Source of the DNA: Luteimonas sp. MC1572
GTDB lineage: Bacteria > Pseudomonadota > Gammaproteobacteria > Xanthomonadales > Xanthomonadaceae
NCBI RefSeq assembly: GCF_016615815.1
Contig: NZ_CP067112.1
Span: forward strand, 186,001 to 250,000
Direction of reading: 5' to 3'
Length of the DNA: 64,000 nt
Both the position numbers and the translations under genes were made by a program. Position 1 is the first letter of the stretch; the number at the start of each line of letters is the position of its first letter. This document shows positions 3,610 through 5,644 of the stretch, in pieces. The notes below the pieces were generated by a model. It was not told the DNA's origin. It worked only from the letters and a program-made list of their open reading frames with translations, and did not search any database.

Positions 3610-3615
3610 GTGGTG

Positions 3616-4656
3616 ATGGAGCCCTCGGTCACGCAGGCGGCCAAGCCGGCGGTCGCGGTGCTGGGCGCCGGCTCCTGGGGCACGGCGCTGGCGGCGCTGA
3701 TCGCGCGCCACGACCATCCCACGGTCCTCTGGGGGCGTGATGCCACGGTGGTCGGCGCGATCGATGCCGACCACCAGAACCCGCGCTACCTGCAGGGCAT
3801 CGCCCTGCCGGCGTCGCTGCGCGCCACCACCGATCTGGCCGCGGCCCTGGCCACGGCCGACCTGGTGCTGGTCGTGGTGCCTTCGCATGCGTTTGCCGGG
3901 ACCCTGCGCGCGCTCGCGCCGCTGCGCCCCGCGCATGCCGGCGTGGCCTGGGCCACCAAGGGCTTCGAACCCGGTTCCGGGCGTTTCCTGCATGAGGTCG
4001 CCGCTGAAGTCATCGGCCCCGGCGTGCCGCTGGCGGTGGTGACCGGTCCGTCGTTCGCCATGGAGGTCGCGTCGGGGCTTCCGACCGCGCTCACCGTGCA
4101 TGGCGACGATCCCGCCTTCGCACAGGCGGTTGCCGACGTGCTGCACGGCCCCGCGTTCCGCGCCTACACCGGCGACGACATGCGTGGCGCCGAGCTGGGC
4201 GGCGCGATGAAGAACGTGCTGGCGGTGGCCACCGGCGTGGCGGACGGCATGAACCTGGGCCTCAACGCCCGCGCCGGGCTGATCACCCGCGGCCTCAACG
4301 AGATGCTGCGCCTCAACATCGCCATCGGCGGCAAGCCGGAAACCCTCATGGGCCTGGCCGGCCTCGGCGACCTGGTGCTGACCTGTACCGGCGACCTGTC
4401 GCGCAACCGCCGCCTGGGCCTGGCGCTGGGCCGCGGCCAGACGCTGGAAGACGCGGTGCGCGAGATCGGCCAGGTGGTGGAGTCGGTGCAGACGGCCGAC
4501 GAGGTCATGCGCCAGGCGGATGCCCACGGCGTCGAGCTGCCGATCGCCAGCAACGTGCGCGACGTGCTGCACGGCGACATCACCCCGGCCGAAGGCCTGG
4601 CGCGTCTGCTGGCACGCGAGCAGAAAGCCGAGTACCCGGCGAAGCTCTTCGCCTGA
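3616..4656 (+). CDS. gpsA: Glycerol-3-phosphate dehydrogenase [NAD(P)+]
   Basis: A 346-residue protein that reduces dihydroxyacetone phosphate to sn-glycerol 3-phosphate for phospholipid synthesis. The N-terminal Rossmann motif is [12 protein letters not shown] (from residue 15). The substrate-domain lysine helix begins [19 protein letters not shown], followed by [14 protein letters not shown] and the glycine-rich [20 protein letters not shown]. Two in-frame GTG codons lie just before ATG 3616; the ATG is chosen as the stronger codon. The stop codon lies inside the first unit of a tandem 8-bp repeat, and gene-free repetitive DNA follows. Confidence 0.96.
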
Positions 4657-4698
4657 GCGCCTGAGCGCCTGAGCGCCTGAGCGCCTGAGCGCCTGAGC
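4651..4698 (+). repeat. Six tandem copies of GCCTGAGC
   Basis: Six perfect copies of the 8-bp unit GCCTGAGC follow one another, and a partial seventh (GC) follows. The first unit carries the last gpsA codons and its TGA stop. Because 8 is not a multiple of 3, the array puts a TGA in each of the three forward frames. Copy-number change by slippage would therefore leave gpsA unaffected. Confidence 0.95.
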
Positions 4699-4704
4699 GC
4701 TGTG

Positions 4705-4797
4705 GTGGCCGTGAGGCCTTCGCGGCTCATGTCCCCCGGCATCCGCCTGGCGGCGGATGCCTCCTCCTTGACTTCCCCGCGAAGGCCTCACGGCCAC
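4705..4797. repeat. Structured palindromic element, copy 1
   Basis: A perfect 21-bp outer inverted repeat (4705-4725 with 4777-4797) encloses a 50-nt core at 4726-4775. The core contains the conserved block CTCATGTCCCCCGGC, then a hairpin with variable middle ATCC/GGAT around a TGGC loop, then GCCTCCTCCTTGACTTC. The core recurs in reverse orientation at 4906-4955. No open frame or transposase accompanies it. It lies between gpsA and the converging Ax21 gene. Confidence 0.85.
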
Positions 4798-4881
4798 TTT
4801 GCGGCTCTGCGATGGCTACAAGTACGGAAGCGTACGCGAGCTTGCGGGCTTTGCCCTCAAACCACCGCGCGGTGCGGCGTA

Positions 4882-4978
4882 CCGGGTGCCAATGGCCTTG
4901 AGAGCGAAGTCAAGGAGGAGGCGATGGCCGCCAGGCCATCGCCGGGGGACATGAGCACTCAAGGCCATTGGTGCCCGG
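4882..4978. repeat. Structured palindromic element, copy 2 (inverted)
   Basis: The outer arms 4882-4902 and 4958-4978 pair over 21 positions with two non-Watson-Crick sites, both G-T; these would be G-U wobbles in a plus-strand RNA. The enclosed core (4906-4955) is the reverse complement of the copy 1 core except for eight positions, all in the inner hairpin, where GATG/CATC replaces the other copy's four pairs. The outer arms bear no resemblance to those of copy 1. Confidence 0.85.
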
Positions 4979-4995
4979 CACCCACCAGCACCACA

Positions 4996-5025
4996 CAAAA
5001 AAAACCCCGACCTTGCGGCCGGGGT
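4996..5025 (-). terminator. Intrinsic terminator of the Ax21-family gene
   Basis: Read on the minus strand, nine pairs (ACCCCGGCC with GGTCGGGGT, one G-U) close a GCAA tetraloop, and eight T residues follow. It lies about 50 bp after the stop of the Ax21-family gene and is a textbook rho-independent terminator. Confidence 0.9.
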
Positions 5026-5077
5026 CTATGTCGCACAGAGGGGAGAGAGTCCCTGTGCGATTTCCCATGGAACGGTG

Positions 5078-5644
5078 TTACCAGGTGAAGCGCGGGCCGA
5101 CGAACCATTCGGTGTCGCCGTCGGCGAACTTGACGTCGCCGTTGATGCCCCAGTTGGTGTTGAGCTTCAGGTTGGCGCCCAGGCGGCCGTAGAAATCGCC
5201 GTCGATGCCGCCGTCGTAGTCTTCGTAGCCGGCCAGCGCGTAGCCGTCAAAGTTCGTGGCCAGCAAGCCGCGCACGCCGACTTCGGTGCTCCAGCCGTCG
5301 AACTCCAGGTCGGTGCCGAGCACGCGGCCGGCGTCGAGCTTCTGGTACGCGACGCGGGCCAGCAGGTCGGCGCGCGGCGAGATCTCGAGGTTGTAGCCCA
5401 GGCCGACCTTCAGCTGGTCGATGTCGATGCTGGTGTTGTCGATCTCCTGGCTGCTGTAGCCGCCGAAGACGTGGAAATTGGGGTGGAACGAGAACGAGCC
5501 GTTGACACCGACGCCGTCGGCATCGACGTCGCCATTGGTGGCCTGGTAGCCGGCCTCGAGGTAGTTGTAGGAGACGCCTTCGGCAGCGGTAGCGGCAAAC
5601 GGCAGCGACGCCGCCAGGGTCATGGCGATCAGGGAGCGCTTCAT
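5078..5644 (-). CDS. ax21: Ax21-family outer-membrane protein
   Basis: A 188-residue exported protein. The signal peptide (MKRSLIAMTLAASLPFAATA) is cleaved near residue 20, and the mature protein starts AEGVSYNYLEAGYQATNGD. This closely resembles the N-terminus of Xanthomonas Ax21, and the rest alternates short aromatic strands, ending in Trp, like a small outer-membrane beta barrel. Ax21 was once proposed as a secreted quorum or immune signal, but the key papers were withdrawn, so a porin-like role is safer. A GAGG ribosome site precedes the ATG. The gene has a structured leader (5681-5743) and its own terminator, which points to an abundant single-gene transcript. Confidence 0.85.
   Translation of the reverse strand: MKRSLIAMTLAASLPFAATAAEGVSYNYLEAGYQATNGDVDADGVGVNGSFSFHPNFHVFGGYSSQEIDNTSIDIDQLKVGLGYNLEISPRADLLARVAYQKLDAGRVLGTDLEFDGWSTEVGVRGLLATNFDGYALAGYEDYDGGIDGDFYGRLGANLKLNTNWGINGDVKFADGDTEWFVGPRFTW

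Follow-up and report, generated by a model that had tools for sequence, protein, structure and literature searches.

We analyzed a window of 64,000 nt from the genome of Luteimonas sp. MC1572. Between gpsA, on the plus strand, and a convergent outer-membrane protein gene, this window holds a composite element of ~270 nt (positions 4701–4983, 3' of gpsA), consisting of one A half on the minus strand and one B half on the plus strand, placed head-to-head. The features of the locus, with the basis of each assignment, are as follows.

3610–4656, plus strand: gpsA, glycerol-3-phosphate dehydrogenase, the 5' neighbor of the element (window ORF; Pfam on the same gene in locus L003)
4650–4705, no strand: 8-nt tandem repeat CGCCTGAG, from the gpsA stop codon to the foot of the element (sequence)
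4701–4800, minus strand: half A of the composite element (covariance model match, E 1.6e-15)
4705–4725, minus strand: half A outer stem, 3' arm in the sense orientation, partner of 4777–4797 (pairing)
4726–4737, minus strand: half A conserved 3' strand, sense GGGGGACATGAG (sequence, alignment)
4738–4761, minus strand: half A inner hairpin, 10 pairs, loop GCCA (folding)
4762–4775, minus strand: half A conserved 5' strand, sense GAAGTCAAGGAGGA (sequence, alignment)
4777–4797, minus strand: half A outer stem, 5' arm in the sense orientation (pairing)
4801–4877, no strand: spacer separating the halves, variable in sequence (sequence, comparison of copies)
4878–4983, plus strand: half B of the composite element (covariance model match, E 2.7e-18)
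4882–4902, plus strand: half B outer stem, 5' arm, partner of 4958–4978, with 19 Watson-Crick and two G-U pairs (pairing, folding)
4906–4919, plus strand: half B conserved 5' strand, GAAGTCAAGGAGGA (sequence, alignment)
4920–4943, plus strand: half B inner hairpin, 10 pairs (folding)
4944–4955, plus strand: half B conserved 3' strand, GGGGGACATGAG (sequence, alignment)
4958–4978, plus strand: half B outer stem, 3' arm (pairing, folding)
4997–5027, minus strand: intrinsic-terminator-like hairpin with a T run, serving the convergent downstream gene, with the element beyond the hairpin (by eye)
5078–5644, minus strand: outer-membrane beta-barrel gene, convergent to gpsA (window ORF; Pfam OMP_b-brl in L003)

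A first-pass annotation of this DNA had described two inverted copies of a structured element here, and sequence, folding and a covariance model all confirmed them. Both strands of both copies fold with z-scores of -8.9 to -10.5 (0/200 shuffles equally good). The model matched only 4701–4800 (minus) and 4878–4983 (plus) in the window, with E-values that are too favorable because both arms are rows of its source alignment; exact matches to the conserved blocks in the 64 kb are likewise these two copies only. The eight differences between the 50-nt cores (positions 18–21 and 32–35) amount to four hairpin pair swaps, and the outer stems have 21 perfect pairs in copy 1 (4705–4725/4777–4797) and 19 Watson-Crick plus two G-U pairs in copy 2, as had been read. 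The conserved blocks, which had been called unpaired, contain three closing pairs (columns 31–75, 32–73 and 33–72), one of which varies on both sides (A-U 62, G-C 3). Rfam returned no match at gathering score in the window, and a relaxed search of 4650–5050 gave 15 matches, all under gathering scores, several of them sRNA matches that coincide with the terminator-like hairpin.

The search for further copies proposed in the first pass found many, in the host genome and in relatives, so that the description of a dispersed structured element stands. The covariance model detected 43 halves in the 3.02-Mb genome (3,020,716 bases, one contig). The first conserved block alone has 31 exact matches there; ten pairs in minus-then-plus order, with members 148–185 nt apart, account for 20 of these, and other exact matches pair with copies that carry one or two mismatches. 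Within the genus Luteimonas, the model found the element in 18/52 genomes including our own and in none of the other 34, with 2 to at least 77 halves (the latter in G649) in 17/51 congeners. L. terricola had 88 halves in a wider model search, and the 16 named carrier genomes, which were picked for having the element, hold 2–88 halves each. An exact pattern matched 11/247 genomes of the family including our own (41 copies in the latter) and 2/369 genomes of a class sample, also including our own; the class count is a lower bound, since variant blocks escape the exact pattern, as was evident from the genus-wide model search. Beyond Xanthomonadaceae genera, the element is also present in many Burkholderiales and in Rhodocyclales. 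A species-genome scan yielded at least 120 stretches with the element, and the matches listed included Luteimonas, Pseudoxanthomonas and Lysobacter as well as Hydrogenophaga, Rubrivivax, Rhodoferax, Variovorax, Ideonella, Aquabacterium, Methylibium and Sulfurisoma, and Rhodocyclales.

With regard to mobile replicons, the window element had no BLAST match among plasmids and phages, and the exact pattern had none in viral contigs. A 53-nt consensus-like query was at least 80% covered in four plasmid records, of which three are from Variovorax and one from B. anthina (weaker matches lay below), and in none of the phages. The copy in a conjugative Burkholderia anthina plasmid (L197, 5001–5056) sits in a meta-cleavage operon with co-directional genes on either side, and such a plasmid is a possible route of transfer.

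The fold is conserved across the family. In an alignment of 65 diverse halves (A1, made up of both arms from the window plus 63 of 71 selected cores, eight having been dropped by hand with no criterion written down), a 34-pair structure was 94.0% paired, compared with 61.0% after shuffling and 35.0–41.4% when partners were slid, and 31/34 pairs were altered on both sides. The covariation score was 0.813 vs. 0.184, and 0/500 shuffles reached any of five measures, although these tests on A1 are inflated by relatedness of the copies. Outer-stem pairs -6 to -24 were 85–99% paired vs. 41–76% expected from column composition in 87 non-redundant cores (outer arms <70% identical, drawn from 241 pattern-found cores). 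Compensatory changes are also seen within one genome, with 10 cells in 3 pairs among 15 A arms and 15 cells in 8 pairs among 18 B arms. The covariation test that had been suggested found the changes in the outer arms and in the hairpin to be compensatory.

The earlier hint from the two G-U pairs, that the plus strand of copy 2 is the one that folds, holds family-wide. Among 1653 outer-stem cells of the 87 cores, G-T/T-G mismatches outnumbered A-C/C-A mismatches by 167 to 24 (binomial p 1.5e-27, uncorrected for relatedness), and the folding strand is therefore the sense strand, GAAGT[AC]AAGGAGGA..GGGGGACATGAG. By this polarity, it is a folded single strand that matters, with DNA and RNA fitting alike. 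The outer stems, which had been taken as unrelated, belong to two subtypes that each recur across our own genome (36 cores): type A has the stem GTGGCC..GCGG and the hairpin ATCCGCC, and type B has the stem CCGGGTGCC..GAGG and mostly the hairpin GATGGCC. We note two loci of this genome (L009 and L011) in which B-type outer stems carry an A-type inner hairpin, which suggests from the sequence an exchange of the hairpin between halves. In L132 (1507–1678), a plus half has ~70 extra nt 3' of the core, along with more inverted repeats.

Within these variable stems, the core T[AC]AAGG[AG]GGA-hairpin-GG[GA]GGACA is nearly constant across halves. The 87 cores carry GAAGT[AC]AAGGAGGA and GGGGGACATGAG, or listed variants, a conservation that is partly built in because the search pattern fixes most of the core. 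A reading of 144 cores is less bound by the pattern; it covers 144 of 155 distinct cores, the other 11 (some of them partial matches) having misfit the reading script. In A1, the invariant positions (first-row numbering) are G28, A29, T32, A34, A35, G36, G37, G39, G40, A41 and G42 on one side and C65, G66, G67, G69, G70, A71, C72 and A73 on the other. All eight G of the GG-N-GG ... GG-N-GG arrangement are thus invariant in the 65 rows, and they are altered in a few other copies. Among the 144 cores, the two N of the G tracts covary (A/G 136, G/A 6, A/A 2, G/G 0; Fisher 2.5e-9, uncorrected for relatedness), and so do the flanking letters, with GAGGT accompanied by ACACG in 14/14 cores and GAAAT by ACATTCG in 4/4, although ACATTCG also occurs twice with other partners. 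Variants in congeners include GAACT and GAAAT with ACATTCG, and GCAAACT with ACATTTGC. A two-tier G-quadruplex or purine-purine helix would fit most copies as judged from these letters. Nonetheless, at least five of the 11 misfits (L144, L150, L168, L106 and L084) have core changes, and those of L150, L168 and L106 lie within a G tract, an argument against a G-quadruplex being obligatory. Stems that vary freely yet still pair round a near-constant core suggest that a protein recognizes the folded shape.

The two copies of the window had been treated as separate units, whereas they form one composite. We located 169 halves in 100 of 120 stretches examined; they make up 62 minus-plus units, one plus-minus unit (L157), one triple (L163) and 24 single halves; another 16 singles, lying close to the end of a stretch, were kept apart. 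The head-to-head (minus-plus) order accordingly accounts for 62/64 multi-half units, and 42/63 minus-plus gaps measure 39–50 nt. The pair is not strictly needed, because 24/88 units are lone halves. The sole plus-minus pair (L157, 2730–2976) keeps the usual gap, at 47 nt, as if the halves had flipped in place. At L249 in our own genome, facing halves 9.1 kb apart enclose genes that look ordinary by eye.

The element lies mostly 3' of genes. Its gaps were 37 tandem, 19 convergent and 1 divergent, compared with 66, 19 and 33 for element-free gaps of at least 100 nt; genes were called with a GC-frame heuristic of our own making, and the counts exclude 14 units remote from genes, 3 of undetermined placement, 2 lying within called genes and the units close to stretch ends. 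Divergent gaps are avoided (p 9e-6) and convergent gaps enriched (19/57 units vs. 19/118 gaps, p 0.012). Of the 21 units examined in our own genome, 14 are in convergent and 6 in tandem gaps, none is in a divergent one, and the last lies within a called gene. Where a single half lies between tandem genes, it does not tend to follow the direction of transcription (2 with it, 7 opposite). Pfam assigned neither a transposase nor a recombinase domain to any of the 40 genes lying closest to 20 units of our own genome; among their products are glycerol-3-phosphate dehydrogenase, glutamine synthetase, fructose-bisphosphate aldolase, SecD/SecF, SHMT and an RNase PH-KH-S1 protein. Clustering of the ORFs from the 120 stretches likewise revealed no transposase recognizable by eye in the 40 largest clusters.

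Occupancy of two sites was compared across the genus. A gpsA query matched all 52 genomes, and of the 30 loci read, a script scored the element in 5, a GTAG REP doublet in 2 and neither in 23. Two stem families occur at this site, with G000 and G642 sharing the same A/B stems and G628 and G644 having another family; in G649 a B half adjoins gpsA and the contig ends shortly beyond. At the fba site, the corresponding script counts were 3/30, 2/30 and 25/30, and one of the 25 (L268) has a GTGGGAG-type doublet by eye. Two congeners (L261 and L264) carry GTAG REP doublets (TGTAGGAGCAGCT...) 3' of fba where G000 has the element. The element shares sites with REPINs. By eye, flanks at both the gpsA and fba sites were too diverged for a clean target duplication or empty-site junction.

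The likeness to REPINs extends beyond shared sites. According to PMC3116915, REPs form inverted doublets at a fixed spacing and show compensatory changes, and PMC8266576 reports that REP, unlike iREP, is acted on by TnpA-REP and that stem bulges matter. Our element has the inverted doublet layout with constrained spacing (62/64 minus-plus; 42/63 gaps of 39–50 nt), stems that vary yet stay palindromic through compensatory changes (94.0% paired; 31/34), an extragenic location, stem irregularities and one-strand polarity. It differs in size, each half having ~75–105 nt compared with the 20–40 bp given for a REP unit in the PMC3733652 abstract. Unlike REPINs, it has no GTAG (or close) tag at the hairpin foot in the 87 non-redundant cores (in which the pattern fixed much of the sequence), its core is nearly fixed across at least two orders, and we encountered no RAYT gene flanked by the same repeat. 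We do not assign it to the REPINs, because tag, size and RAYT all speak against membership.

REPINs are thought to depend on RAYT. As the partner of our element, RAYT was rejected, its domain Y1_Tnp having 0 matches in our own genome despite the 43 halves there. No Y1_Tnp was found in any of the three highest-copy genomes (G649, G635 and G000) or in 5/16 named carrier genomes, and it does not track the element in the genus (13/18 carriers vs. 20/34 non-carriers, Fisher p 0.38). The covariance model found no strong match to the element at 26 distinct Y1_Tnp loci and a weak one at L072 (26.5 bits, E 0.00044); two Y1_Tnp loci in carriers (L295 and L299) are flanked by inverted GTAG repeats. A reverse transcriptase domain (PF00078) occurs in 15/52 genus genomes and, among the 18 carriers, only in G000, G633 and G635. 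The IS91 Y2_Tnp domain matched 0/13, in a search whose control likewise matched nowhere.

Two other systems deserve comparison. The E. coli BIMEs, with their y and z REPs, also have more than one arm type per composite (PMC8266576), whereas our arms are much longer, have a different core and usually occur as one A plus one B rather than as mosaics. The Burkholderiales-1 motif of Weinberg et al. 2010 is a candidate structured RNA of Burkholderiales with the ambiguous labels 'RNA?' and 'cis-reg?' and no Rfam number in its table entry (PMC2864571). Judging by the table entry, it might be the same element. Literature searches by literal sequence, topic and name gave no description that we recognized as this element, with many subscription papers outside their scope.

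Taken together, we consider it somewhat probable that the element is a REPIN-like non-autonomous repeat, new if distinct from Burkholderiales-1, that a putative trans-acting protein recognizes as a folded single strand; working in the manner of a REPIN with a partner other than RAYT is our leading explanation. Each half would present a long hairpin with a purine-rich core of near-constant sequence, and a putative transposase-like nuclease or recombinase may recognize it in folded form, probably as single-stranded DNA exposed at replication. This protein, acting in trans, would copy or move the head-to-head pair into gaps 3' of genes. We infer such movement, rather than gene conversion alone, because of the copy number, the patchiness and the site occupancy. 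Against this account, neither the Y1_Tnp searches nor the Pfam domains of the nearest genes at 20 own-genome units revealed an enzyme, and gene conversion could account for stem turnover at one site. Lone halves, the gpsA and fba flanks with no clean target duplication or empty-site junction, and the many loci at both sites that hold neither repeat likewise count against it. Moreover, the G-U bias fits RNA as well as single-stranded DNA, and the B. anthina operon copy would also suit a role in RNA.

These last points bear on an RNA element, whose sense half would fold in mRNA 3' UTRs and bind a protein or block 3' exonucleases or transcription, with the corollary that any transcript reading through from either side would have a folded sense half at its end. 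The G-U excess (167 vs. 24), the strong RNA folds, the placement 3' of stop codons and the plasmid copy between co-directional operon genes all favor this reading. It is made unlikely by the direction of single halves in tandem gaps (2 with the gene, 7 against), by the minus-plus layout, in which every transcript meets the antisense half first, and by a patchy range of 0 to at least 77 copies in one genus, which suits a cell function poorly. Where the first-pass annotation had left the nature of the dispersed element as RNA or otherwise, RNA is thus not established, given also a layout typical of mobile DNA repeats.

Two readings treat the element as DNA of a more familiar kind. A role as an architecture site between genes has been proposed for the E. 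coli BIMEs, and our element could similarly form a cruciform or other fold to which a host DNA protein such as gyrase, IHF or a partition factor binds. The enrichment in convergent gaps (19/57 vs. 19/118; 14/21 own-genome units) argues for such a site, but 34/52 genus genomes do without the element, and a duplex or cruciform treats both strands alike and would produce no excess of G-T over A-C, which leaves this role improbable. Still less probable to us is an ordinary MITE, in which the halves would serve as terminal inverted repeats for a cut-and-paste insertion sequence with a duplex-reading transposase. Recognition of a duplex needs no freely varying stems with kept pairing, and in the loci read we recognized no longer relative in which a gene separates the halves, despite inverted ends, many similar copies per genome and seven G649 contigs with a copy no more than 160 bases from their start.

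Returning to the REPIN-like repeat, a more specific version of it can be offered tentatively, and we hold it as possible but doubtful. It proposes a RAYT-independent transposition, with a putative enzyme that reads the folded strand through the stem-embedded purine core, possibly as a G-quadruplex or purine-purine helix. The element would have spread by this means through Lysobacterales, Burkholderiales and Rhodocyclales and would occupy the REPIN niche in some RAYT-less genomes. If the REPIN-like account is true, the same layout and some shared sites, combined with a distinct, far larger recognition structure and no RAYT found alongside, would mean that the REPIN lifestyle has more than one origin, and the element would point to an enzyme, so far undescribed, with folded DNA or RNA as its substrate. 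With the covariance model the family can be searched for, and the contrast in copy number within one genus (0 to at least 77) makes a partner gene findable by comparison.

Lastly, short tandem repeats spanning the gpsA stop codon (CGCCTGAG, GCCTGAC and GGCTGAG) precede the element in our own genome and in two congeners (L222 and L225). Exact tandem repeats were present in 5/120 element flanks in Lysobacterales vs. 0/565 control windows, and in 3/184 element flanks vs. 1/658 controls in stretches from genome contigs, the controls being mostly coding in both comparisons.
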